A stretch of DNA of 64,000 bases from positions 1-64,000 of the forward strand of contig JAPLJS010000027.1 of assembly GCA_026388545.1 (NCBI GenBank). Reading direction: 5' to 3'. The notes beneath the pieces were generated by a model. That model was not told the DNA's origin. It worked only from the letters and a program-made list of their open reading frames with translations, and made no database searches. The position numbers were made by a program, and so were the translations under genes. Origin of the DNA: Deltaproteobacteria bacterium. GTDB taxonomy: Bacteria > Desulfobacterota > Syntrophia > Syntrophales > UBA2185. Below, piece by piece: positions 25,198 to 38,906 of the stretch (within the stretch, counting starts at the first letter, position 1; each line of letters begins with the position of its first letter).

Positions 25198-27138
25198 TCA
25201 ATCGATATATTTTTGGTGAAAGCAGGACGGATCGGTATGGGGGAGAAACAGGGCCGCGGTGTACTGATTCATATAGGCGGGATCCGTTATGAGTTCCAGA
25301 TAGGTCATCCGCCGGGCTTGCTCACGCTGTCTTTCCCGGTGTTTGTGTGATACCATGGCCATATGGCTCCCTGCGAGAGAAGAATTACCGATAAAATGAA
25401 ACCGGTCCCGTGGCAGATCCGGAAGGAGGCCGATCGTTATGGCTGCATCCATGTCCAGAAATCTGCCAAACCCGCCGGCGATATAGACCTTCCTGAGATT
25501 GTGAAATTCCATTCCTACCTGTGTCAGCATGAGTGCACAAGCGGCATAGAGCGCCGCTTTGGCGCGGATGATGTTTTCAATATCCTGTTCATTAACAGTG
25601 ATCGCTTGTCCGGTGGCGCTTTCATTTGCGGAGACTAAGGTATAGGAGGCACGACGACCGGCGATCTGAATTGACTCCGATGATTTTGAACGGTTCAATT
25701 TTCCGGCGGCATCGATCCAGCCCGTTTGCAACAGTTGAGCCAGCAGCGAAATCATTCCGGAGCCGCAGATTCCGCGAGGCCTGACCTGGCCGATAGTTCG
25801 GAAGATCGACAGGCCAGTTGCCGGATCAACTTCCACTTTTTCGATAGCTCCGGCAGCGGCTCTCATACCGCACTTGATCCCACCGCCTTCAAAGGCCGGT
25901 CCGGCAGAGCAGGCACAGGCCAGAAGAAATTCCCGGTTGCCTAAAACTACTTCGCCGTTGGTGCCGATATCCATAAAGAGATGAACATCTTTGCTTTTGT
26001 TGCATAGATCAGTGCAGAGGATACCTGCGGTGATATCCCCGCCCACATAGCTTCCCACTGCCGGCGAAATCATAACAGGCGCCGGATCATGGATATCAAT
26101 GCCGATCTCAGACGCAGTGAAGAAAGGCACGTCGAGGAGCGTCGGTGTATACGGATCGAGCCGGATGTATTCGGGATTCAGGCCCAGCAGCAGATGGGTC
26201 ATCGTGGTATTGCCCGAAATGACGGCGCATGCAATTTCAAGGGGTTCCACTTGGTTGTGGCATGCCGACTGGCGAATGAGACGGTTGATTGTCTTGAGGA
26301 CGCGACTACGGAGTTCCTCACGACGGTCCGGCCGGCGGGCATAGTCAATACGGCTGATGATATCGAGTCCGCAGGCGAGTTGGCCGTTGTAATCGGTACA
26401 GGTGGAAAGAATCTTCATATTGGACAGATCAACCAGTTGCACTGCCACGGTAGTTGTGCCCACATCAATGGCGATCCCGTAGTGCCTGCCAGTCCCGTCG
26501 TTTGCTTCAATGGCCGTGACCCGGTATCTTCTGATTTTTCCGGAAAAATATTCTGAGGTGGACATTTGTCTGGATGGCATTCCATTGGCAACCGTGACGG
26601 TTACATTCCCTCCGGCGACCCGTAAGGCATCGGCTACCTGACGGATGACAGCAAACGGAATAATGATCTCTTCTTTACCAAGCCGCTGTTGCAGTGTGCG
26701 TATGAGACGGTCCAGGTCTGACAGACCATCGGCTTTTTGCGGGGGCGGCACATAAATGTTTATTTTTTCGGTCAACGGGCGGCAGTCCTCCGGAGTCGGC
26801 AGTAAGGCCGGATCGATAAGCTCCATCCCGTCGTCGTCACTGAACTGGCCGCCGAAACGTCCGGCCTGATCGGGCACCTCAATGATAACATCGGTATCCT
26901 GGATAGATGTTCGGCAGGTCAGTACAAAGCCCTGATCTATTTCCGACTGAGTCAAAATGCCGAGGCTTTCACAGTCAACCCGGCCGGAGATGATGCGGAC
27001 GGCGCAGTTACCGCAGGTCCCCTTGCCGCCGCAGGGGGCGTCGATCTCTACACCGGCCCGCCGCGCCACGTCCAGCAGCGTTGTCTTCGCTTGAACCTCG
27101 AGAGTGATCCCCAATGGTTGAAAAGTTACAGAAGGCAT
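25198..27138 (-). CDS. Corrinoid-protein reductive activator (RACo-like, 2Fe-2S plus ASKHA)
   Basis: A 646-residue activator that uses ATP to drive reduction of the inactive Co(II) corrinoid protein to Co(I). The N-terminus is a plant-type 2Fe-2S ferredoxin domain with Cys36, Cys42, Cys45 and Cys75 (APCGGKGTCGNC and VLTCRT). A linker region precedes a C-terminal ASKHA ATPase-like domain starting YGIAIDVGTTTVAVQLVD, with VAVISGNTTMTHLLLG-type, FMDIGTNGE and AGGFGRFLD segments (DUF4445-type). It is the last gene of the acetyl-CoA synthase cluster and follows a four-helix-bundle gene. Its ATG lies three bases after a 37-bp repeated sequence; no ribosome site is obvious. Confidence 0.93.
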   Translation of the reverse strand: MPSVTFQPLGITLEVQAKTTLLDVARRAGVEIDAPCGGKGTCGNCAVRIISGRVDCESLGILTQSEIDQGFVLTCRTSIQDTDVIIEVPDQAGRFGGQFSDDDGMELIDPALLPTPEDCRPLTEKINIYVPPPQKADGLSDLDRLIRTLQQRLGKEEIIIPFAVIRQVADALRVAGGNVTVTVANGMPSRQMSTSEYFSGKIRRYRVTAIEANDGTGRHYGIAIDVGTTTVAVQLVDLSNMKILSTCTDYNGQLACGLDIISRIDYARRPDRREELRSRVLKTINRLIRQSACHNQVEPLEIACAVISGNTTMTHLLLGLNPEYIRLDPYTPTLLDVPFFTASEIGIDIHDPAPVMISPAVGSYVGGDITAGILCTDLCNKSKDVHLFMDIGTNGEVVLGNREFLLACACSAGPAFEGGGIKCGMRAAAGAIEKVEVDPATGLSIFRTIGQVRPRGICGSGMISLLAQLLQTGWIDAAGKLNRSKSSESIQIAGRRASYTLVSANESATGQAITVNEQDIENIIRAKAALYAACALMLTQVGMEFHNLRKVYIAGGFGRFLDMDAAITIGLLPDLPRDRFHFIGNSSLAGSHMAMVSHKHRERQREQARRMTYLELITDPAYMNQYTAALFLPHTDPSCFHQKYID

Positions 27139-27197: not shown

Positions 27198-27262
27198 AAT
27201 GCAAAAGTCAAAATGCGAAATCAACTACTAAGAATTATTTTGCATTTTGCATTTTGCATTCT
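27198..27262. repeat. Heptamer array, family B, 3' side of the second four-helix-bundle gene
   Basis: Three exact TTTTGCA units (27238-27258) plus an inverted block AATGCAAAAGTCAAAATGC (27198-27216) that can pair with them to form a hairpin. The array encodes the last residues of the four-helix-bundle protein (KRMQNAKCKIILS). Confidence 0.85.
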
Positions 27263-27640
27263 TTTCGCTGTTATAATAGATTTCCCTATGATTTTTGATA
27301 ACTCATTACATTCACATGAAAAACTTTCAATTTTTATTTTTTCACCTAATTCTGCCTTGCAAAGCAACTTTAACCAATATTGAGTTTCTTTCAATTCTTT
27401 CAGTACGATCTGAAGCTTATGAACAAAGTCCGCTCTACTTTCTGCACCGCAGGCCTCTTCATAATTAGCGCCGCATGAGGTTACAGAGCGCGTTAGTTGC
27501 TTCGCGATATGGGCCTCTGCATACGATATCTTCATTTGCCCGAAAAGTTTAATACCATCAACGGAAAATTGAAGAAATCTCTCCGAGAGGTCACGTTTTA
27601 TCGAACAATTATCTTCCATACTTGATTTTGCATTTTTCAT
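27221..27640 (-). CDS. Second stand-alone four-helix-bundle protein (S23/IVP-like)
   Basis: A 139-residue member of the four-helix-bundle family, recognisable by LTRSVTSCGANYEEACGA (the counterpart of SGLSIPSNIAEG), FVHKLQIVLKELKETQYWL and a following helix. It is clearly divergent from the copy at 2616-2963. Its start overlaps the stop of the corrinoid-protein large-subunit gene as ATGA, and both its first residues (MKNAK) and its last residues (RMQNAKCKIILS) are translated family B heptamers. An internal ATG at 27619 (MEDNCSIKR) is an alternative start. It interrupts the acetyl-CoA synthase operon, and nothing in it suggests a role in that pathway. Confidence 0.88.
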   Translation of the reverse strand: MKNAKSSMEDNCSIKRDLSERFLQFSVDGIKLFGQMKISYAEAHIAKQLTRSVTSCGANYEEACGAESRADFVHKLQIVLKELKETQYWLKLLCKAELGEKIKIESFSCECNELSKIIGKSIITAKRMQNAKCKIILSS

Positions 27641-27660
27641 TTTGCATTTTTCATTTTGAT
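27626..27660. repeat. Heptamer array, family B, 5' side of the second four-helix-bundle gene
   Basis: Five units in exact 7-bp phase on the plus strand: TTTTGCA, TTTTTCA, TTTTGCA, TTTTTCA, TTTTGAT. It carries both the stop of the upstream corrinoid-protein gene and the start of the four-helix-bundle gene; each reads MKNAK from it at shifted positions. Confidence 0.9.
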
Positions 27661-28980
27661 AAAGCTTTCAATATCTGCGGCATCCTGGGGACCGACGAGC
27701 ACCTTCCAGCCCGGCAGGTTTTCCTCCAGTTCCCCGCTGATCTGGGCGACGTAGCCGGGAATAACGATCTCGCGCGTGGATACCTGGTTCTCCAGGCCTA
27801 CTTCCTTAACGAATTTGGCGATGGAGGCGCCGGAAAACTTTCCCGCCGCCCATGCTGTAAGCACGCTCATTCCCTCACATTCCGGGACCACCAGCCAGCC
27901 GCTTGTCCCGCTGTTTTCGATTTCGCCTGAGACGGTGAAATAAGTGAGTGAGAAGTTGGTCGTCACGAAAACCGGAGAATCGGGCTGGGGGTCGCCGATG
28001 GGATAGACCTTCGGCTCCACCTGGATGGGCTTCTGGGGATCGGTGTAGATATTGAGACGGAGCGTCATGAGTGTGGCCATGAGCGCGGGATCAAAGGCGG
28101 GCAGGACGCAGATACCGCCGTATTTATTGATTTCCGTGATTGCTCCGGCAGCTATTTCTAATAGATCAATGCTATGATCCAGAAAGCGTAAAAAGGGATA
28201 CCCGAGGGGCTTGACAGCGTCTTTCAGGGCGGCACGGCGGACAGCAAAGTTCGTCTGGAAGTGTTCGGCCAGAGATGATGTCCGAAACTGGAGAAGGACA
28301 TCATGGAAGCCCGCCTCCCGGAGCTTCGAGGCACACTGGAACAGGCCGTCCAGGTCGGGGGCTGTCACAGCGAGGACATGGTCATTTCTCTTCGCGGAGT
28401 TGCACAGTTCTTCCACCGTTTCCGGCGTAGCAGCGGACAGGACGCTGCGAGAACCTTTCACGGCCACAGAGGCGGCCTCCAACGCCGCCGGGCTGTCGCT
28501 TCGGAGCACCAATGGTCGTCCGGTTGTTTCCCATGCTTTTTCAGCAAGAGAAGCAAAACTATCCATGTCCCTGCCCGCATGGGTTACGGCAACCATGTCA
28601 ATTCGGAATGTTTCGCCAACCCTTTCCAGCCGGTAATCGCGGACGGCCTTCAGCGTTTCTTCGATCATCGCAGAAGGATCGGTATCATTGATATTAACGG
28701 CAAGGGCTGTCTGGCGGAAGAAGGTCTTTTCGTGCCGGTAAAGGACTGTTTCCTCACCCAGTATCAGGGTCCGGTCTGGTCCTAGTACAATTGCCCGGAC
28801 AGGCGGCTCGCTGGCCGCACCGAGCACCCGGATCGCCTCTTCAGAGGCATAAGGGCATTCGGTAATCGCAGCTTTCTTTGCCGCTAATTTCATAGCAAAG
28901 GCCATACAGGTATTTGATCCGCATTCTCTGCAATTTGTCTTAGGAAGCAGCTTCTGAATCTGCAAACCGGTCAATGCCAT
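27637..28980 (-). CDS. acsC: Corrinoid iron-sulfur protein large subunit (AcsC/CdhE)
   Basis: The 4Fe-4S-carrying subunit of the corrinoid protein that shuttles the methyl group to acetyl-CoA synthase. The N-terminal cluster motif NCRECGSNTC with a fourth cysteine in ITECPY is present, followed by the TIM-barrel part and the C-terminal corrinoid-binding region (FVTTNFSLTYFTVSGEIE, WLVVPECEGMSVLTAWAAG, VIPGYVAQISGELEE). The frame is open to 29016, but the ATG at 28980 (MALTGLQIQKLLPKTNC) matches the family start and has GAGG six bases upstream. The last residues KMKNAK come from a heptamer array. The partner small subunit is fused to AcsB in the gene just upstream. Confidence 0.95.
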   Translation of the reverse strand: MALTGLQIQKLLPKTNCRECGSNTCMAFAMKLAAKKAAITECPYASEEAIRVLGAASEPPVRAIVLGPDRTLILGEETVLYRHEKTFFRQTALAVNINDTDPSAMIEETLKAVRDYRLERVGETFRIDMVAVTHAGRDMDSFASLAEKAWETTGRPLVLRSDSPAALEAASVAVKGSRSVLSAATPETVEELCNSAKRNDHVLAVTAPDLDGLFQCASKLREAGFHDVLLQFRTSSLAEHFQTNFAVRRAALKDAVKPLGYPFLRFLDHSIDLLEIAAGAITEINKYGGICVLPAFDPALMATLMTLRLNIYTDPQKPIQVEPKVYPIGDPQPDSPVFVTTNFSLTYFTVSGEIENSGTSGWLVVPECEGMSVLTAWAAGKFSGASIAKFVKEVGLENQVSTREIVIPGYVAQISGELEENLPGWKVLVGPQDAADIESFIKMKNAK

Positions 28981-28984
28981 AATA

Positions 28985-29066
28985 ACCTCAAAGAAAATGT
29001 AAAATGCAAATTTCAAAATGATTCTTATTCAGTACTTTTGACTTTTTCATTTTTCATTTTGCATTA
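28985..29066. repeat. Family B palindromic heptamer region between acsBD and acsC
   Basis: AATGTAAAATGCAAATTTC on one side and CATTTTTCATTTTGCATT on the other can pair around an A/T-rich centre. The right arm overlaps the end of the acsB-acsD reading frame (LMQNEK stop). Units keep the 7-bp period (ATTTTTC, ATTTTGC). Confidence 0.75.
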
Positions 29067-32000
29067 GTCTAAGGATCGTCTTTTTCAGCGACATCGCTGC
29101 TTCGGGATGATACATGATCAGCAGGTCGGCGCCGGCGTACAGGAGGCTCACAGCTGTAGAAAGCTCCCAGAGGGCTGTGCGGTTTTCCAGATTTCCCCAG
29201 GCCGGGAAATCGGTTTCCGTTGCCCTGTACTCCTTGATTCTGGCGCATTCCTGTCCGGGTGAGACGATCATCGGTGCAGCCAGCATCATGTCCCCGCCCA
29301 GTCCGGTAAGACGAATCCGCTCCATGACGGAGCAGGTATATTCGATCCCGTAACCGGTCGCACCCGTCATGGGATCCATGACGATCCGCTCAGGCTTGAC
29401 ATCCATGTTTGTCAGCAGGATGTTCATCTGCTTGCCGATGTTTACATCGATGGGACTCTGGGCGACGACGCTGTGACCATAAGCTATGGCCGCACCGGCG
29501 ATGGTGCGGTAGTTGCCCTGTTCCACCCAGTTGAGGAGCAGGTTCTCTCCGGCGCAGGCCTGAGCTAAGGACTTCAGGACTTCGTTGTTCTTTTCGTAAT
29601 GACTGTGGCCGGTTATAATCAAGGGCACCTCCACAGCATCAAGAACCGCCTTGATGAGGTTGACGGCCTCATCCGGCGTGCGGTTCCCCTTTTCGGGATG
29701 GGTTCCGTCGAGACGCACGCTGATGAGATCGGCGCCGTATTTTTCCACACAGAGCCGGGCCATTTCCGCCGGCCGGTACAGCAGTTCTCCATAGATATTT
29801 CTGAGGACAGCGGGATATTTCTCGGAGATAACATCAAATACTTCCATGGCCACAAGGGGGCGATTCGGCATTCTGCCTTCCCATAGGTGGAAGGGCATGC
29901 AGTCGGCCCCGCCGATGGTCAGGGTATGGCCGCGGGTGCCGCCCGTTTTCTTCGTAGTGCCCAGTGTGACCTGCCAGATGGGGAACTCGCAGGTTTCCCG
30001 GCGGATGGGAAAGGAGGTGACGGCGTTCAAACGGTCACTAACAGCGGGCTTGATGGGCGATTCCTCCTTTTCCTCTATTCCCACCGGTAAAGCCGGCTTT
30101 TCCAGAGCCTCAACGGGTCGCACCTCAAATACAGGACGCTCTGTCGGGGCTGGGGATGGGCCCGGCGGCGGGGTCGGCAGGGCGTAGACGGCCATGTCTT
30201 CCATTTCCAGGGCCGGGTGCTGGACGCTCTCCAGGTATTCCCGGATTGCGTGCGCATCGATACCTACGTTCTCATCGGCTATCTTGTCCAGGAGATCAGG
30301 CGCCCCCTGCTCGGCGAAGCGTTTATTCAGATCGAAAGCGAGGAGTTCCTTGAGCGCCTTCGGCATCCAGACGAGTCGCCGATAGCCCCCTTCCGCCGCG
30401 AGGAACTTCCGGGAGGTCAGGAAGACCTTGCCCACACCCATGAAGCCGGGGGTTTGCTGGCCGCCGCCAACCGAGCCTGCCAGGCTGGAGAAGGTCATCC
30501 CTACAGGCGTTTCGCCCTGGTATTCCCGGTTGACAACCATGACGCCGTTGCATTCGGGAAGATAGGCCAGGATCGCCTCGAAGCAGCCGCAGCTTGTCAT
30601 GGGCCGGTCCATGAGGGAATAGCAGCAGAACTCCGTCACGGTCTTGTGGCTGTTTGTATAGACGTAGTCGTTTATGCCATGAAAGATGCCCTTTACGGGA
30701 TCGATGGTTTCGCCTTTTTTTACAGGCTGGTTAGGCCCCGTCTCGTTGATCTCATAGGCCGCCTTGCCGTCCAGCCAGTTGTAGGCCCCGCAGAGCCCCA
30801 GCCGCTCCGGTGTAATTATGCAGACGTGATTGGGAGCGAAGGACTGGCAGAGGAGGCACGAGTAGAAGGTATCCACCGCTTCATCCGTCATGGCCTCCAG
30901 GCGGCGGTTTCGCTCGTCATAGACGCGGCGGGCGACGGACAGGCGTCGTTCCACCTCTGCCTTGTCGGTGATGAGCATCACTTTCACCTTGTCCACTATG
31001 GCCGGGTAGTCGGAGATGAACTTGGTGTGTATGATATCCCCGTAATGGCGAAGCCTGAGCCCCCGTGCGAAGCCGTTCTTTGAGATGCGCGTCCAGACGA
31101 TGTCCCTTTGTCCCATATGCCAGATACCCTCGGCGCCGTTGACAAGGTGGTGGATCTGCCGCTCGAGGATAGGCTCAAAATCGGCCTGCATCTTCCGGCC
31201 CGCCACCTCCACCCAGATGGCAAGGGGCAGGCTGCCACCGGGTGCGACCTGGTCTATGTCGGGTCCGACGACCTCGATCTCTCCGTCGTTGATCTGATCC
31301 ATGTCCACGCTGGTCACGAATTCAAAAGCAGTAGTCAAGTTTCCGCCAATTTCCACTTGTGCATCGGCCTTGCGGATCAACTCCCCTTCGAAGGCCGGGC
31401 CATAGGGGACGGGAATGGGAACTTTTGTGACCTTGATCTTGCATCCCCTAACCTCCAGGGCTTTCTCCACCATTGTTTCATAGGGCACGGAGGAGACGAC
31501 ATGCTCGTACGTGCAGACGCCTGTGGGCAGAATCTGGGGGATGTCCGTATCGGCAATTGTGGGGAAGCCGTAGTTGATGGCCCCGGCGGCAATGGCGTAC
31601 TTATCAGGTGTCACCTCACCGAAGGCCAGCACAAAGGCAAAGATGCGATTCTTGTTGTACCGGAGATTCCTTTCATAATCGCCGGGCTGAACGCCGCCGA
31701 AAGAGAGGGCTACGCGATTGGCGAATCCCAGGGCGTAGATCAGGGCGGAGACGTCCCGGCCAAAGGGGATGAGGCGCGTCGGCCAGCCGAGTTGCACGCC
31801 TTCCTCGGCCAACTGTTCAGCAAACTGCCTGCCGTTGGTACTCCCCGCCATGAATACATAGAGGTTTTTCTCTTGGAGCTGCCGGGCGATGGCGACGGCG
31901 ATCTCATTGTTCGGCGCCGCACCGGTAATGGCGGCAAAGCCGGGGGCCGTCCCGTCAACGAATTCGATACCCCTTTCCCGCAGGATAACGTCATTTGCCG

Positions 32001-32367
32001 CACCCAGCCATATACCATCCACGGGATCAGGGCCCACGGCGTACTTGCAGGTCTCGATGATCTCACAGGCAAAGAGGGAAGCCACGCCCGCATCCAAAGC
32101 GCTCCCCAGATAGGGAAGCCAGACCTCATCTGCAGGACGGAGAGGCAGCAGCTCTTTGGCGTGCCGGAGGATGGGCCGGAGATCGCCCAGTGTCCGAACC
32201 TTCTCGCCGGTGAAGGCATAGATAACGGGGAGAAAATAGGCCGTCCCCGGAAAGGCCGCAGGCCACGTCTCGCCCCTTTTGTGGATGGCATGATTCAGGC
32301 GGTCGTCGGCTTCGGCGATCCAGTCCCTGGCCCCATCGATGGCGCTCGCGCAGATGATCTTAGACAT
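29047..32367 (-). CDS. Fusion of acetyl-CoA synthase (AcsB) and corrinoid-protein small subunit (AcsD)
   Basis: A single 1106-residue frame. Residues 1 to about 730 are a full-length bacterial acetyl-CoA synthase. The A-cluster ligands are Cys504, Cys507, Cys516 and Cys526 (FYSCLLCQSF...VCIIT...GLCGAYN) and the Cys593-Gly594-Cys595 motif (MTSCGCFEAI), each two residues from the Moorella numbering. A proline-rich linker (about 731-782, starting PTPPPGPSPAP) follows. Residues about 785-1106 are the small subunit of the corrinoid iron-sulfur protein (VTLGTTKKTGGTRGH, ISVRLDGTHPE, IITGHSHYEKN, IVMDPMTGATGYGIEYT). These are normally separate proteins. The start has GGAGG seven bases upstream and overlaps the CO dehydrogenase stop by 8 bp. 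No internal stop or frameshift is seen at the junction. Confidence 0.95.
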   Translation of the reverse strand: MSKIICASAIDGARDWIAEADDRLNHAIHKRGETWPAAFPGTAYFLPVIYAFTGEKVRTLGDLRPILRHAKELLPLRPADEVWLPYLGSALDAGVASLFACEIIETCKYAVGPDPVDGIWLGAANDVILRERGIEFVDGTAPGFAAITGAAPNNEIAVAIARQLQEKNLYVFMAGSTNGRQFAEQLAEEGVQLGWPTRLIPFGRDVSALIYALGFANRVALSFGGVQPGDYERNLRYNKNRIFAFVLAFGEVTPDKYAIAAGAINYGFPTIADTDIPQILPTGVCTYEHVVSSVPYETMVEKALEVRGCKIKVTKVPIPVPYGPAFEGELIRKADAQVEIGGNLTTAFEFVTSVDMDQINDGEIEVVGPDIDQVAPGGSLPLAIWVEVAGRKMQADFEPILERQIHHLVNGAEGIWHMGQRDIVWTRISKNGFARGLRLRHYGDIIHTKFISDYPAIVDKVKVMLITDKAEVERRLSVARRVYDERNRRLEAMTDEAVDTFYSCLLCQSFAPNHVCIITPERLGLCGAYNWLDGKAAYEINETGPNQPVKKGETIDPVKGIFHGINDYVYTNSHKTVTEFCCYSLMDRPMTSCGCFEAILAYLPECNGVMVVNREYQGETPVGMTFSSLAGSVGGGQQTPGFMGVGKVFLTSRKFLAAEGGYRRLVWMPKALKELLAFDLNKRFAEQGAPDLLDKIADENVGIDAHAIREYLESVQHPALEMEDMAVYALPTPPPGPSPAPTERPVFEVRPVEALEKPALPVGIEEKEESPIKPAVSDRLNAVTSFPIRRETCEFPIWQVTLGTTKKTGGTRGHTLTIGGADCMPFHLWEGRMPNRPLVAMEVFDVISEKYPAVLRNIYGELLYRPAEMARLCVEKYGADLISVRLDGTHPEKGNRTPDEAVNLIKAVLDAVEVPLIITGHSHYEKNNEVLKSLAQACAGENLLLNWVEQGNYRTIAGAAIAYGHSVVAQSPIDVNIGKQMNILLTNMDVKPERIVMDPMTGATGYGIEYTCSVMERIRLTGLGGDMMLAAPMIVSPGQECARIKEYRATETDFPAWGNLENRTALWELSTAVSLLYAGADLLIMYHPEAAMSLKKTILRLMQNEK

Positions 32368-34309
32368 CGAGTTTCCTCCGATCCTCCATGTCGTAGAGCT
32401 TCCGCTCGGTTTTTCTGTTGATTCCGAGGCGCTCGCGTTTCTTATCGAGGAGATCGATCACCATGTCTGCAGCCCGGAGAGGGTCTTCGCAGACATGGAA
32501 GGAGGCGTTGAAAAGTTCGGTGGTCTCCTCATTGAGGAAGCGGGTCACATTATCGGATCCGCCGATATGGAAAGGATGTCCCAGCACCACGTCGATCCCC
32601 GAGGCTACGAAATAGCAGGCGATGGCCACGGCCTTTTCACTCATCCATTCGGGGGCCACACCCACAGCCGGGATTTGAGACAGATCGTCTCCCAGGCCGC
32701 CCTCCAGGACCACTTCCGTTCCCGCTTCCAGGATGCGGGAGTTGTCCACGCAACTTCCCATGTGGAGGACCGGGGGCATCCCGATTGCTTCGCAAACCTC
32801 TCGCAGCCCGGCGCCCGCTGCCTCCAGCGCTGCTTCCGGCCGGAGCATTCCTTCTTTCGCCGATGCGATGGCCGCGCAGCCCGTCTTGAGGACCAGTACA
32901 TTTTGTCCGATCAATGCCCGCGTCAGGGTGTTGATATAGGCGTCCACACGTGTCCGGGGATTGTTGCAGCCTACGATCCCTGCGATGCCCCTGATCCGGC
33001 CCTGGATGACTGCATCGTTCAGGGGGCGGAAGGACGCCCGGAAACGGCCGCCTAACATATACTTGATGGCATCCACGCTGAATCCCGCCACGAGCGGCTT
33101 TTTGATATCCGGGATAGACGCCTTCTGCGGATCGCGGTTTTTGAAATTGTCGATAGCCCGGCGGATCAGGATTATTGCCGTAGCCAGAGGGTTTTCCCGG
33201 TTGAGTGTGATATGCGTCGACCCGATGGTTTTCGCGATATCCGCCGTGGAGATAATTTCCGTATGGTAGCTCCTGGCGACATCGGGCAGGCTCGGCATGC
33301 AGCATTGTACATCGACAAGCATCATCTCCACAGCGCCCGTCACTATGGCGAGCTCCTGCTGGAGGAAGCTTCCCGCCACGGGGATGCCGTGCCGCATGAG
33401 TATCTCATTCGCCGTGCAGCAGATCCCGGCCAGTGTGATCCCTTCGGCGCCGGCCTCTTTCGCATAAGCCTGGATTGCGGGATCGCGGACGGCGATAGCC
33501 AGCATCTCGGATAGTTCCGGCTCATGGCCATGGACGATGATATTGACCGTCTCTTTTCTGAGCACACCGAGGTTGGCGTTACTTCTTACGGGTGAGGGTG
33601 TTCCGAAGAGGATATCCGAAACCTGCGTGGCAATCCTTGACCCGCCCCAGCCGTCGGCAAGGGCCGTGCGGAAGGCCTGGAGGAGAATGTTCCGGTAATC
33701 GTGATCGACACCCATATGCGTTCGGTGGAGCGATTCGACCACCATCCGGTCAATGCCGAGCGGCGTGACAGCCTGGCTCTGCCAGATGGCCTGCTGCCTG
33801 AGCGGTGAGAGGCGGAGCGTCAACAGAGATTCTTCCTGAAGCATGAATTCTTTTAGTAGCAGGTCGGCGAGTTCCAGGGCAACCGCCTCCTTTTTGCGTC
33901 CCGCTTCTTCAATACCATAGCGCTTCGCCGTTTGGCGGAGGGCCCTTTCATCCCTGATCACGTAATCGGCGATACGGCCTTCCGCCGCCTTTTTCAGCAG
34001 GAGAACGAGATGACGGCCGTGATCGGAATGGGCCGCCGTTCCCCCGGCCACCTCGCGCAGGAAATTGCGTGCCACGATCGTGTCGGCATCGGCCCCGCAA
34101 ACCCCGCGCGGGGACTTGTTCGTAATCCGGCATGGTCCCATGTAACATATCCGGCAGCAGAGGCCCTCGACGCCGAACCGGCAGGGGTTCTGCTGGGTAT
34201 CCAGGCGGGTGAAACAGGTATCGACGCAATCCCGCTCCGCCTTGATCAGTGTCAGAATCGACGCCTGGTCCCATACACGGTCTTCGGGTTTTATAGGTTT
34301 CTTTGCCAT
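32360..34309 (-). CDS. acsA: Ni-Fe carbon monoxide dehydrogenase catalytic subunit (AcsA/CooS)
   Basis: Interconverts CO2 and CO and, in complex with acetyl-CoA synthase, feeds CO through an internal tunnel. N-terminal cluster cysteines (Cys43, Cys51, Cys52, Cys55, Cys60, Cys71, in NPCRFGVEGLCCRICYMGPC) supply the D and B clusters. C-cluster ligand segments follow: NIIVHGHEPELSEM (His), GICCTANEIL, VDVQCCMPSL, GIVGCNNPR, LKTGCAAIAS and HMGSCVDNSR. Length 649 is normal. AAGGAATTCG precedes the ATG. The downstream fused synthase gene overlaps it, supporting a bifunctional AcsAB complex. Confidence 0.97.
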   Translation of the reverse strand: MAKKPIKPEDRVWDQASILTLIKAERDCVDTCFTRLDTQQNPCRFGVEGLCCRICYMGPCRITNKSPRGVCGADADTIVARNFLREVAGGTAAHSDHGRHLVLLLKKAAEGRIADYVIRDERALRQTAKRYGIEEAGRKKEAVALELADLLLKEFMLQEESLLTLRLSPLRQQAIWQSQAVTPLGIDRMVVESLHRTHMGVDHDYRNILLQAFRTALADGWGGSRIATQVSDILFGTPSPVRSNANLGVLRKETVNIIVHGHEPELSEMLAIAVRDPAIQAYAKEAGAEGITLAGICCTANEILMRHGIPVAGSFLQQELAIVTGAVEMMLVDVQCCMPSLPDVARSYHTEIISTADIAKTIGSTHITLNRENPLATAIILIRRAIDNFKNRDPQKASIPDIKKPLVAGFSVDAIKYMLGGRFRASFRPLNDAVIQGRIRGIAGIVGCNNPRTRVDAYINTLTRALIGQNVLVLKTGCAAIASAKEGMLRPEAALEAAGAGLREVCEAIGMPPVLHMGSCVDNSRILEAGTEVVLEGGLGDDLSQIPAVGVAPEWMSEKAVAIACYFVASGIDVVLGHPFHIGGSDNVTRFLNEETTELFNASFHVCEDPLRAADMVIDLLDKKRERLGINRKTERKLYDMEDRRKLDV

Positions 34310-34455: not shown

Positions 34456-35214
34456 TCATTTTATCATGTTCAGCAAGCACTCTATTCCAACAAACACCGG
34501 ATTGTCCGCTGAAAGAAGTTTCAGATTTCCATTTTGCTCCGATATTGCTAAAATATCTTCATCTTCCGGCAGGCCCACAACCATATTTGCTCCCGTGGCG
34601 ATTCTGATCTCTTCTGCGATTGCAGGCAACTCTCGCTGCCGGAGGCGGTTGACGACAATGGCAAGGCTGTCGTAGGCAATGTCCATATCGCCGGCCAGGG
34701 CATGGAGCCTTCTTACGGTCTCAAAACCGCGGCCCGTCGCATCGGTGACCATGACCAGGAGACTGACTTTATTAACAATGCGTCTGGAGAGGTTCTCCAA
34801 ACCCGCTTCGTTGTCCAGGATCACATAGGGATATTGTTTGACCATCTCAATAAGAACGGCCTTCAGGACGTTATTGGCATAACAGTAACATCCAGGCCCC
34901 TCACATCGCCCCATTGCAATGAGGTCAAAATCATCACTCTCCACGAGGCTCTCGGCGATACGGAGTTGCAGAAAACGCTTTTTGTCCATGCCCCGGACCG
35001 TGCCATTCTGGGCGAATTTACGGGCGTCCTCACGAATACCGCCGACGGTCTTCACCACCTTAACCCCCAGGGCCGTATCAAGGCAGGTATTGGGATCGGC
35101 ATCGACGGCCAGCACGGGACGGCATCCCCGGTGAATGAGGCGCATTACCATGAGCGCCGCCACTGTCGTCTTTCCCACACCGCCTTTTCCTGCAACCGCG
35201 ATCAGGCGATTCAT
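34456..35214 (-). CDS. CooC-type nickel-insertion ATPase, copy 1
   Basis: A MinD/CooC-family P-loop ATPase of 252 residues. It has the deviant Walker A AGKGGVGKTT (residues 8-17), VLAVDADPNTCLD, and a CxC metal-binding motif in CEGPGCYCYANNVL, the feature that distinguishes CooC/AcsF-like maturases from other MinD proteins. It is likely to help load nickel into CO dehydrogenase or acetyl-CoA synthase. It overlaps the second CooC gene by ATGA and lies just upstream of acsA. Confidence 0.92.
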   Translation of the reverse strand: MNRLIAVAGKGGVGKTTVAALMVMRLIHRGCRPVLAVDADPNTCLDTALGVKVVKTVGGIREDARKFAQNGTVRGMDKKRFLQLRIAESLVESDDFDLIAMGRCEGPGCYCYANNVLKAVLIEMVKQYPYVILDNEAGLENLSRRIVNKVSLLVMVTDATGRGFETVRRLHALAGDMDIAYDSLAIVVNRLRQRELPAIAEEIRIATGANMVVGLPEDEDILAISEQNGNLKLLSADNPVFVGIECLLNMIK

Positions 35215-35987
35215 TGCTGGACCTCAAGCCTGTTCAGGATGTCTTCGAAACAACGAAGTAAATCATCGGGCAGGCCGTCCAGGACAGAGCTACCGTCTCG
35301 GTCGGTACGGCGGAGTTCCTCCCGGTAAGGGATAATGCCGAGAAATGTGTTCCCCGGAAAAGCCTCCCGGAGGAACCGTTCATCCTCCAGGCCGTTTATC
35401 TTATTAGCCACAAGGCGGATATCCTGCAAGCCGATATCACGAGCGAGTCGCAGGATGCGCCGGGTGCTGTCTACAGCCCTCTGGCCGGGCTCAACTACGA
35501 TTATCATCCGATCCACGCCGCTGGCCGTGGCCCGTCCCAGATGCTCTACACCGGCCTCCATGTCCATAACCAGGACGTCATCCTTATACAAAATGCAATC
35601 CGTAACCAGGGCACGTATAAGCACATTCTCCGGACAGGCACAGCCGCCGCCTCCCCGCTCAACGGCGCCGAGGACGAGGAGTGCCACACCTCGATGATGG
35701 TAGGCAAAACTATCTGCAATATCGGAAACCTCCGGATTGAGTTTAAATATCTGCCCGTACTGCTTAACTTTTGCCCCTGTCCTCGCCTCGATCAGTGCCG
35801 CCTGACGGGAGATGGGGATGATACTTTCCTGTTCCCGGGCGGGGATCCCCAGGGCAGCCGCAAGATTGGCGTCCGGGTCGGTGTCCACCGCCAGGACCTT
35901 CCTGCCCCGGCGAGCCATGAGAAGGATTATCGCGGCTGCCAGCGTCGATTTACCGGCGCCCCCTTTTCCGGAGATCGCAAGCTTCAT
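35211..35987 (-). CDS. CooC-type nickel-insertion ATPase, copy 2
   Basis: A second MinD/CooC-family ATPase with AISGKGGAGKST, VLAVDTDPDANLAAALG and the CxC motif in GGGGCACPENVLIRAL. It is not a recent duplicate of its neighbour; the two differ through most of their length. They may serve the two nickel sites of the complex (C-cluster and A-cluster), as proposed for CooC and AcsF. The frame opens at 35999 (MDYYMKL); the ATG at 35987 gives the standard start MKLAISGKGG and has GGAT seven bases upstream. A 37-bp repeat precedes the gene. Confidence 0.92.
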   Translation of the reverse strand: MKLAISGKGGAGKSTLAAAIILLMARRGRKVLAVDTDPDANLAAALGIPAREQESIIPISRQAALIEARTGAKVKQYGQIFKLNPEVSDIADSFAYHHRGVALLVLGAVERGGGGCACPENVLIRALVTDCILYKDDVLVMDMEAGVEHLGRATASGVDRMIIVVEPGQRAVDSTRRILRLARDIGLQDIRLVANKINGLEDERFLREAFPGNTFLGIIPYREELRRTDRDGSSVLDGLPDDLLRCFEDILNRLEVQQ

Positions 35988-36004
35988 ATAATAATCCATA
36001 TGGA

Positions 36005-36100
36005 TTTAATGCAAAAGTCTAAATGCAAAGTGTAAAATTAAGGAACAAAAAATCATTTTGAATCTTTCATTTTAAATTTTGAAATTTGCATTTTGCATTA
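36005..36100. repeat. Family B palindromic region with 37-bp repeated leader, copy 2
   Basis: 36005-36041 matches 27141-27177 at 36 of 37 bases. The remainder, with TTTTGCATT at 36088-36098, is complementary to the left part, so the whole can fold as a hairpin. It fills the gap between the MetE-like gene and the CooC-like gene. Confidence 0.85.
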
Positions 36101-37062
36101 TTTGTATTTTTCTTTCATAAAAGCGGAAAGGTTTGCCAGACTGTCGTATACCAGCTCTGCGTCCTCAGGTGACAGGGAGCCGGTGCCGCAGGAGGGCGTT
36201 AGAAGGGCCTGATCGGCAATGAGGCGTTTTTCGATGCCCCTGGAAGCCAGGTGATCCATCATGTCTTCGAGGCGCGCCGCGAGGCTCTCCACAGTCTGTT
36301 CCCGGATGGCCGTCGAGGTGGGTACAATCCCCCAGGCAAGCGCACCGCCCCGTAACAGATGTGTTTTGACGGCCCCGGCGTACATGGCGATTGTCTCACC
36401 GTACTGGAAGGCGTCGAAGCTGATGATATCCACACCGGCATCGATGGGGATGCTCCACTCCGTGTTGCCGCAGCAGTGCATACCGGCGTTGCCGCCTTCG
36501 GTATGTACGGCATCGATCATGTCTTTGAGCAAATTGATCACATCATCCCGGCGGACGGACACATAAGTGGAACTGCCGAAAGCAGAAAGGATCGGCTCAT
36601 CGATAAAGCATATAACATGACCGGCATATGGCTTGAATTTCCGGACCTGCCAGCGGGAGATCATGGCCAGCGTTTTGGCGATCATATCCCGGAATTCTTC
36701 ATTATAATAAATCGCCCGCTTTTTTTCATCAACGACTGTCAGGGAAAAGCTGCACGGACCTGTAACCTGACATTTTACAAAAGGCATCTTTTTACCCTGC
36801 TGCCGCAGTCTCTCTTCCAGTGCGTGAATCCCCCGGGAGAAGGTCGGGCTGACGGCCACCGCCGCACAGTTGCCGTCTCCCTCTTCGGGGTCCATGGCCA
36901 GGAGGTAGGTCTCGTAGAATTGGGCAAAAGCCTCAGAGTAATCGCCGGATGTATCGAAATAGAGGCCGGCAGCTTGGATAGGATCAGGTCGACAGCGTAG
37001 CCCGGATCATCAAAGGGCATGCTGCCGATGCCGGTCGCCAGAAACTGTGGTTTAACGATCAT
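36098..37062 (-). pseudogene. MetE/UroD-like methyltransferase, disrupted by internal deletion and frameshift
   Basis: The family-typical N-terminus is read in one frame from ATG 37062 (MIVKPQFLATGIGSMPFDDPGYAVDLIL), while the continuation AAGLYFDTSGDYSEAFAQFY and everything after it lies in another frame, reaching the stop at 36098. The usual stretch between these parts (in relatives, about 30-40 residues containing a PxxPQLP-type segment) is absent, so a deletion of roughly 100 bp with loss of frame near 37000-37020 is likely. The remaining C-terminal part has the cobalamin-independent methionine-synthase-like features VTGPCSFSLT, CFIDEPILSAFGSS, MHCCGNTEWS and DQALLTPSCGTGS. It may be a real pseudogene, or the assembly may have an error here. 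In relatives such MetE-like proteins sit near acetyl-CoA pathway genes. Confidence 0.75.
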
Positions 37063-37099
37063 TGTATGTTAACTCCTCCGCGAATATTTACTAAGAAAA

Positions 37100-37189
37100 A
37101 GTCCCCCTTGGCAAAGGGGGATTTAGGGGGATTTGACAAAGGTTGACGCTCTTTAAAATCCCCCTATGCCCCCTTTATGAAAGGGGGGA
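37100..37189. repeat. CCCCCTTT/AAAGGGGG palindromic repeat, copy 2
   Basis: GTCCCCCTTGGCAAAGGGGG, GATTTAGGGGGATTT and, after about 20 bases, AAATCCCCCTATGCCCCC with CCCTTTATGAAAGGGG. This is the same composite hairpin as at 24901-24993. It lies between fhs and the MetE-like gene and could end or process the transcript. Confidence 0.85.
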
Positions 37190-37220: not shown

Positions 37221-38906
37221 TCAGGCATTTCCAGGGTTAGAAATGCCGGTGATATTCCCCTCGTCGTCGATATCAATGTGATAAGCCGCCGGTGCTTTCG
37301 AAAGTCCCGGCATGCGCAGGATTTCGCCGGTTATGGGAATGAGGAAGCCGGCCCCCGATGCAATCTTGATTTCCCGCACGGTGACAATGAAATCTCTGGG
37401 CAGTCCCAGGAGGGCGGGATTATCCGAAAGTGACTGCTGGGTTTTGGCAATGCATATCGGGAGTTTGTCAAAGCCGAATTTCTTGATGATGTCGAGATTT
37501 CGCTTTGCCAATGGCTGGTAGTCAATGGAAACAGCGCCGTATATCTTACTGGCAACAGTGAATATCTTGTCTTCCACCGGCTGATCCCATTTGTAGAGCG
37601 ATCGGTAAGTGCTAGACGACTTTGCGATGAGATTCACCACTTTTTCCGCGAGCTCCAGGCCACCTTCGCCGCCGAGACGGAAAATGTCGGCAGATGCGAT
37701 ATTCATCCCTTCATTTTCCGCCGCACTGATGACGGCCTGTATCTCTTCATCCGTATCGGATGGGAAACGGTTCAACGCGATGATACAGGGGACGTTGAAC
37801 TTATCAATGTTCTCGTAGTGCTTCCTCAGGTTGGCCATGCCGAGGACCGCCAGACGGGGATTGGGCTCATTGAGAGCCTCGCTGGACACACCGGCATGAT
37901 ATTTCAGGGCGCGAACCGTTGCCACCAGGATAACGATGCGGGGGTTCAAATTTCCGTAAGGCGCCACGATATCGAAGTACTTTTCCGCACCCAGCTCAAA
38001 GCCGAATCCCGCCTCGGTCACTACATAATCGGCTAAACGGAGGGCAAGGTCGGTACCTATGATGCTGTTTGTTCCCTGGGCGATGTTGGCAAAGGGACCG
38101 CCGTGAATAATGGCGGGCACACCCTCTGTGGTCTGCACCAGATTGGGGAGAAGTGCATGTTTCAGAAGGGCCGTGACGGCGCCCTCGACCTTCAGATCTC
38201 CGGTAATGACCGGCTTGTCGTCATACGTAAAGCCCACCAGAATTTTTCGTATCTTGTCCTTCAATTCCGCATACGATCGTGAGAGGCAGAGAATCGCCAT
38301 AATTTCACTGGAAGGAACGATGTCGAAGCCCGTCTCGCGGGGTACGCCGTTTGTGGAACCGCCGAGACCGATGACGATATCCCGGAGGGAGCGATCGTTC
38401 ATGTCCATCACGCGGCGCCAGGTGATCTTGCGCGGATCGATGTTCAGGGGGTTGCCGTGGAATATAGTGTTGTCAATAATGGCGGACAGGAGATTGTGGG
38501 CGCTCTCCACCGCCGGAAAATCATTCGTAAAGTGGAGATTAATTTCGTCCATGGGCAAAACGCAAGAAAGACCGCCGCCCGTAGCGCCGCCTTTGATGCC
38601 GAAAACGGGTCCCAGGGACGGTTCGCGGAGGGCTACAATAGTTGGCTTTCCCAGCCTGGCGAGGGACTGTGCGAGCCCGATGGATACAGTGGTCTTTCCT
38701 TCACCGGCAGGCGTTGGGGTCATTGCGGAAACGAGGATCAGGGAGGCATTTGCCCTGCGCTCGAAGCGCTTGATCGCCTCGATCCTGACCTTTGCCTTGT
38801 AGCGTCCGTAACATTCCAGATCGTCTTCCGCAAGGCCGATAGAGGCGGCGATTTCGGAGATCGGCCTAATGCCCTTGACGGCGCGTTGTTCTTTTACTTT
38901 CCCCAT
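37221..38906 (-). CDS. fhs: Formate-tetrahydrofolate ligase
   Basis: Activates formate with ATP to 10-formyl-THF, the first folate step of the methyl branch of the Wood-Ljungdahl pathway, or runs in reverse. The family start IRPISEIAASIGLAEDDLE-type segment, the P-loop TPAGEGKTTVSIGL, ALREPSLGPVFGIKGGATGG (as two blocks) and EKYFDI/NLNPRIVILVATVRALK segments are clear. Length 561 is normal. It follows the ACT-domain gene by two bases, so they form one transcript. Confidence 0.98.
   Translation of the reverse strand: MGKVKEQRAVKGIRPISEIAASIGLAEDDLECYGRYKAKVRIEAIKRFERRANASLILVSAMTPTPAGEGKTTVSIGLAQSLARLGKPTIVALREPSLGPVFGIKGGATGGGLSCVLPMDEINLHFTNDFPAVESAHNLLSAIIDNTIFHGNPLNIDPRKITWRRVMDMNDRSLRDIVIGLGGSTNGVPRETGFDIVPSSEIMAILCLSRSYAELKDKIRKILVGFTYDDKPVITGDLKVEGAVTALLKHALLPNLVQTTEGVPAIIHGGPFANIAQGTNSIIGTDLALRLADYVVTEAGFGFELGAEKYFDIVAPYGNLNPRIVILVATVRALKYHAGVSSEALNEPNPRLAVLGMANLRKHYENIDKFNVPCIIALNRFPSDTDEEIQAVISAAENEGMNIASADIFRLGGEGGLELAEKVVNLIAKSSSTYRSLYKWDQPVEDKIFTVASKIYGAVSIDYQPLAKRNLDIIKKFGFDKLPICIAKTQQSLSDNPALLGLPRDFIVTVREIKIASGAGFLIPITGEILRMPGLSKAPAAYHIDIDDEGNITGISNPGNA

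Follow-up and report, generated by a model that had tools for sequence, protein, structure and literature searches.

How a corrinoid protein meets acetyl-CoA synthase (ACS) is a central open point in one of the oldest carbon pathways. The locus reported here raises the question of whether the two partners can be joined in a single polypeptide and, if so, what such a tether would do. It lies in a 64,000-nucleotide stretch of DNA from a Desulfobacterota genome (hereafter the window), in which a preliminary description had read AcsB and AcsD, the small subunit of the corrinoid protein CFeSP, as one gene. We asked whether this gene is genuine, how widely it occurs and how a tethered complex might work.

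The fused gene and its domains

The gene, designated acsBD, occupies positions 29047-32367 of the minus strand, a strand that the preliminary description had not named. It starts with an ATG at 32367, ends with a TGA at 29047-29049 and has no internal stops; on the plus strand, 29047-32367 is not open. ORF, Pfam, NCBIfam and PDB searches identified its 1106-residue product as AcsB followed in frame by AcsD, both complete, as had been claimed. The Pfam domains follow each other in the order CODH_A_N, CdhC, ACS_CODH_B_C and CdhD. Based on NCBIfam and PDB sequence searches, residues 1-725 (30193-32367, minus strand) constitute the AcsB part, and residues 797-1106 (29050-29979, minus strand) were assigned to AcsD by NCBIfam, PDB search and model superposition. 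Between them lies a Pro-rich linker, residues 726-796 (29980-30192, minus strand), which was delimited by AlphaFold2 pLDDT, dN/dS and composition.

The NCBIfam CODH_ACS alpha/beta model matched residues 10-725 with 1031 bits, and Carboxydothermus and Moorella AcsB matched residues 11-725 in the PDB sequence search. This half has the three-domain architecture and the six A-cluster cysteines of bacterial AcsB; Cys 504, 507, 516, 526, 593 and 595 are all present, exactly where they had been placed before, and are invariant across 48 fused proteins. The AcsD half matched the NCBIfam delta subunit model NF003376 over residues 797-1102 (368.9 bits, cut-off 280) and 4djd_D, the small subunit of Moorella CFeSP, over residues 788-1103; its scores with NF040759 (260 of 430 bits) and TIGR00381 (229 of 253) stayed under the respective cut-offs. 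Its full-length sequence and its fold agree with the CFeSP small subunit (TM 0.91 by target length for the AlphaFold2 model on 4djd_D), and it departs from AcsD/CdhD proteins in being in frame with AcsB rather than a stand-alone polypeptide.

The AlphaFold2 model of AcsBD was of mediocre to moderate quality (mean pLDDT 69.7, pTM 0.40) and gives no view of how AcsD is seated on AcsB; Foldseek matched its halves to CODH/ACS chains and to CFeSP small-subunit chains. The pLDDT fell below 50 at residues 728-771 and 785-791, and the window linker, with 15 Pro in 71 residues, is apparently disordered according to this model. The linker is Pro-rich as previously described, but nearer 70 than about 50 residues long.

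Conservation of the fusion in related genomes

Within the family (Syntrophaceae), the fusion occurs in four more genomes, G003, G006, G007 and G008, the AcsB part of G008 being in pieces through gaps or frame breaks. Further Desulfobacterota with the fusion are G015, from the same order, and G507, from elsewhere in the phylum, which represent two other families. Among 395 phylum-level genomes, at least two fusions (G000 and G507) were present among the matches listed. Comparison of the window with three sisters gave dN/dS values of 0.066-0.073 for AcsB, 0.080-0.106 for AcsD and 0.37-0.54 for the linker, and the corresponding ranges over all pairs were 0.055-0.080, 0.080-0.114 and 0.37-0.81. 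Judged by these ratios, both halves of AcsBD are under purifying selection. Alignment gaps among the sisters consist of whole codons, and those in the linker also keep the frame.

The draft MAG from which the window comes is divided into 128 contigs, and an assembly or sequencing artefact that joined two genes could be suspected for this reason. However, the identical junction is found in the sister MAGs and in dozens of genomes from many studies. Because relatives keep the frame, we reject such an artefact, whose probability is negligible, and consider acsBD almost certainly a genuine natural AcsB-AcsD fusion. Both observations that the preliminary description had named as fatal to the fusion failed to appear: independent sister MAGs keep the linker frame without a stop or frameshift, and a PF03599 search of the own genome detected no second acsD, its matches being acsC, the AcsD half and one other that was weak, partial and in an unrelated frame. 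Two long frames of 1207 and 1212 residues, at G129 and G145, were discarded as candidate fusions, as the AcsB frame there is only 741-746 residues long.

Distribution and origin of the fusion

When named genomes were scanned with the AcsD part as query, 80 loci were returned. AcsB and AcsD were in one frame at 67 of these, 53 at full length (scripted count); since the query picked relatives of the window AcsD, this sample is uninformative on fusion frequency per phylum. By NCBI names, the 67 fused loci are spread over 15 phyla, with 6 loci in unranked lineages (KSB1, Aminicenantes etc.), and phylum labels may be wrong because nearly all of these genomes are MAGs. Four more loci, L080, L089, L101 and L126, are cut by contig ends and are probably fused as well, given that the stretch before AcsD matches the linker profile. 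Unannotated fused relatives, whose existence had been considered possible, therefore occur in large numbers. The proposed search for homologues and their phylogeny did yield many fused proteins; the fusion is a widespread variant rather than a lone curiosity, and it is apparently of single origin. No fused match was present in a plasmid collection, and plasmid carriage was rejected on this ground. No description of an AcsB-AcsD fusion was found in the available text of the open-licence literature searched, and as far as these papers show the fusion is new. At L108, L122, L124, L132 and L140, from Aminicenantes, Ignavibacteria and a single Acidobacteriota locus, the AcsA that goes with fused AcsB is divergent (51-53% identity), which looks like a replacement of the CODH gene.

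The linker at fused loci has a median length of 131 residues (range 70-227), and linkers of the window family are the shortest (70-76 residues). Most long linkers (L081-L155) share a helical-looking segment with the consensus LTxEIVxxIIxTLSxKFLG, which is not found in the window family. A linker profile had no match in the unfused AcsD proteins read, and we discarded the idea that the helix derives from an N-terminal extension of unfused AcsD.

In a quick IQ-TREE analysis of AcsD (88 rows, SH-aLRT only), unfused rows were on one side of a branch with support 99, and fused and contig-cut rows (63) formed one group, also with support 99, which the unfused L137 and L138 adjoin. The label 'fused' by itself requires 5 changes on this tree because four contig-cut rows, labelled apart, fall among the fused rows. 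The AcsB tree (FastTree only, 87 rows) contained all 57 fused rows in one clade with support 100; near-duplicate rows had been removed by hand before both trees. These topologies suggest, with good support, that the fusion arose once and later spread across phyla, and no reversal to the unfused state was seen in the set read. L137 has the gene order acsA-acsB-cooC-acsD-acsC, and that of L138 is similar, which could plausibly be the pre-fusion state. From such an order, acsB and acsD may have come to adjoin each other when the intervening cooC was lost or moved elsewhere.

The acs gene cluster and the MesB-like gene

In the window, genes are arranged in the order fhs, MesB-like gene, cooC, cooC, acsA, acsBD, acsC, four-helix-bundle ORF and acsV; the common order at fused loci is acsA-acsBD-acsC(-acsV). 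On the minus strand, Pfam and NCBIfam identified fhs (formate-tetrahydrofolate ligase, 37221-38906), acsC (CFeSP large subunit with corrinoid and 4Fe-4S, 27637-29016, likely start ATG 28980) and acsV (reductive activator of CFeSP of the RACo family, 25198-27138). Also on this strand are acsA (Ni-CO dehydrogenase, 32360-34309, NCBIfam), which shares 8 nt with the start of acsBD, and two genes for cooC-like ATPases, at 34456-35214 (named by homology and position) and 35211-35999. A small four-helix-bundle (23S rRNA-IVP-like) ORF was observed within or adjoining the acs cluster in the window (27221-27640), L079, L122 and L138 (239-757). The acsC gene is in frame with acsBD and split from it by two TGA codons only (29047-29049 and 29029-29031), which we regard as coincidence; one polypeptide comprising all three proteins was rejected because of these codons.

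Of the two CFeSP subunits, AcsC is the one that carries the corrinoid and the 4Fe-4S cluster. AcsD is therefore not itself the methyl donor, as had been supposed, and AcsC is still encoded by a separate gene, so that the tether would hold the CFeSP heterodimer only via AcsD-AcsC association. The 1:1 ratio of AcsD to ACS inferred earlier does apply within the chain.

The MesB/core-MetE-like gene (36098-36895, minus strand) was recognized by its orthologues and its Zn ligand pattern, H-x-C, D, C. The ligands H140, C142, D161 and C236 correspond to the MesB pattern, and the H-to-D spacing of 21 in the loci read equals that calculated from the CBDB1 MesB residue numbers in PMC7005905. Of the 29 other fused genomes searched, 28 contain an orthologue with 56-83% identity (none in G554), and the gene adjoins cooC in the 20 readable loci (window included), mostly directly upstream. 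The unfused L137 and L138 also carry a MesB-like gene, shortly before acsA, and other unfused genomes contain at most relatives of approximately 30-42% identity. We refer to the protein as MesB-like rather than MesB because its NCBIfam matches, to methionine synthase and MtbA models, were weak and a PDB sequence search gave no match; the published threshold for MesB membership is 173 bits to DET0516. Its frame in the window looks disrupted near the 5' end compared to the longer orthologues of the sisters, which may reflect an assembly error. Within 36098-37140, which includes this gene, sister-like N-terminal sequence is visible upstream in another frame.

AcsE and other methyltransferases

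Canonical Wood-Ljungdahl systems have a dedicated AcsE. A PF00809 search of the own genome detected no stand-alone AcsE, only FolP and an 824-residue MetH. For comparison across genomes, an AcsE-like gene was defined as a PF00809 match in a stand-alone frame of at most ~360 aa that is not FolP, a rule fixed once the results of the first fused batch were known. Such a gene was detected in 27 of 27 unfused Desulfobacterota, 2 of which miss the frame rule if strictly applied (G407, with a 526-aa frame, and G021, truncated at a contig end next to acsB), and it was mostly on the acs contig within a few kb of acsB. Among fused genomes, at most 11 of 63 had it (8/29 in the first batch and 3/34 in the second, with ambiguous matches counted as present), including G547, G548, G551, G558, G562 and G581; these counts were made by hand from tables, and the second batch includes the only probably fused L101 and L126. 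With four unfused genomes added (30/31 with the gene), Fisher's test gives 2.5e-14, a value that is descriptive only because counts were hand-typed and related genomes were treated as independent. The fused proteins being one group, the contrast is phylogenetically non-independent, and absence from any single MAG could be due to incompleteness. AcsE was probably lost earlier than the fusion arose, as the nearest unfused relatives, L137 and L138, also have no AcsE-like match.

MtrH was absent from all 28 genomes searched, and it was rejected as a substitute for AcsE. The short MetH (824 aa, L157:475-2946) has an AcsE-like pterin domain: the MeTr domain model NF005719 matches residues 339-599 of the protein at 242 bits, against a cut-off of 259. 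MetH is a common enzyme of methionine synthesis. Since metF is also present in the genome, methyl-THF would be available, and together with the short MetH this makes another route from methyl-THF to CFeSP possible.

Proposed working of the tethered complex

AcsA and the AcsB half may form the usual CODH/ACS. AcsC would dock onto the AcsD half, so that the corrinoid carrier hangs off ACS by a long flexible tether and could swing among the A-cluster, the reactivator AcsV and a methyl-exchange partner while staying in the complex. In an AlphaFold3 model from a recent study, CFeSP is docked so that its small subunit lies at the N-terminal domain of ACS; the study also reports a similar conformation for Clostridium autoethanogenum (PMC12289521). 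Permanent residence of the methyl donor at the A-cluster, as first envisaged, is not what a disordered linker of about 70 residues provides; it gives proximity only, corresponding to an effective concentration of 2-4 mM for a disordered tether of 45-70 residues (a rough polymer estimate with our own formula and constants). We think it likely that tethering is the role of the fusion, and somewhat less firmly, though still probably, that AcsBD is a fused, functional, tethered complex.

With AcsE absent from most fused genomes and no MtrH in the genomes searched, the most likely exchange partner would be the co-encoded MesB-like protein, which could pass the methyl group from methyl-CFeSP to homocysteine. 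In AcsE-less Dehalococcoides, MesB has been proposed to accept a methyl group from CFeSP (PMC7005905, PMC7857596). With such a partner, the module might mainly take methyl groups (and, via AcsA, also CO2 and reductant) from acetyl-CoA for biosynthesis, in contrast to classical acetogenesis. The partner and the cleavage direction are proposed tentatively, and it is rates, partner choice and direction that we infer. Equally tentative is the broader idea that many phyla contain a second bacterial CODH/ACS type, tethered and AcsE-independent, in which ACS and CFeSP form one covalent unit and methyl groups would move between acetyl-CoA and methionine via a MesB-type partner, bypassing tetrahydrofolate.

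Alternatively, this could be an ordinary Wood-Ljungdahl CODH/ACS, fused by chance and working in the carbon-fixing direction, whose tethered CFeSP is methylated by methyl-THF, either through a methyltransferase that went unrecognised or through the short MetH with its AcsE-like pterin domain. The genome does have fhs, metF and a MetH with an NF005719-matching domain, acsA, cooC and acsV are all there, and AcsE-like genes persist in some of the fused genomes. In addition, Treponema and Oscillospiraceae MAGs are among the sources of fused loci, and CO2-reductive acetogenesis is documented for termite-gut Treponema (PMC3082573). However, the lack of a stand-alone AcsE in most fused genomes and of MtrH in the genomes searched, together with a MesB-like gene in the cluster instead, argues against this explanation, and the presence of MetH by itself is no evidence for action on CFeSP; we consider it rather unlikely. 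It is also conceivable that the fusion is selectively neutral, an intervening gene having been lost without functional effect between proteins already together in a complex, or that the linker is cleaved post-translationally. A fast-evolving linker, its predicted disorder and the rarity of the fused form among Desulfobacterota genomes searched are consistent with neutrality or cleavage, whereas retention across many phyla with no reversal in the set read, the in-frame gaps in family linkers and a helical segment common to most long linkers, undetected by profile in the unfused AcsD read, make both improbable. The tethered complex thus remains the preferred interpretation.

Comparison with known CODH/ACS systems

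A natural tether would make methyl transfer intramolecular and directly amenable to study, and may aid structural work. Given how seldom AcsE occurs with the fusion, genomes credited with the Wood-Ljungdahl pathway on the strength of acsB only may operate it differently from acetogens; annotation with models of one subunit each would miss the fusion.

Archaeal ACDS, in which CdhC acts with CdhD/CdhE, has homologous beta and delta subunits. Its subunits are encoded by separate genes, and its beta subunit lacks the N-terminal domain. In contrast, the AcsB half described here has this domain, and archaeal ACDS gave a shorter PDB match. With the CODH/ACS systems of Moorella thermoacetica, Carboxydothermus hydrogenoformans and Clostridium autoethanogenum (the last represented, with CFeSP, by PDB 9fzy), the present system shares the AcsB domains, the A-cluster cysteines and the AcsD fold, as well as AcsC, AcsA, CooC-like and AcsV homologues. 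However, AcsB and AcsD are separate in these three organisms and AcsE loads CFeSP, whereas here they form a single chain and no AcsE was detected. The system resembles that described for Dehalococcoides in an AcsE-less genome, a MesB-type protein and the Zn ligand pattern H-x-C, D, C; Dehalococcoides is described as having neither CODH nor MetF, whereas acsA and metF are both present here (PMC7005905, PMC7857596).
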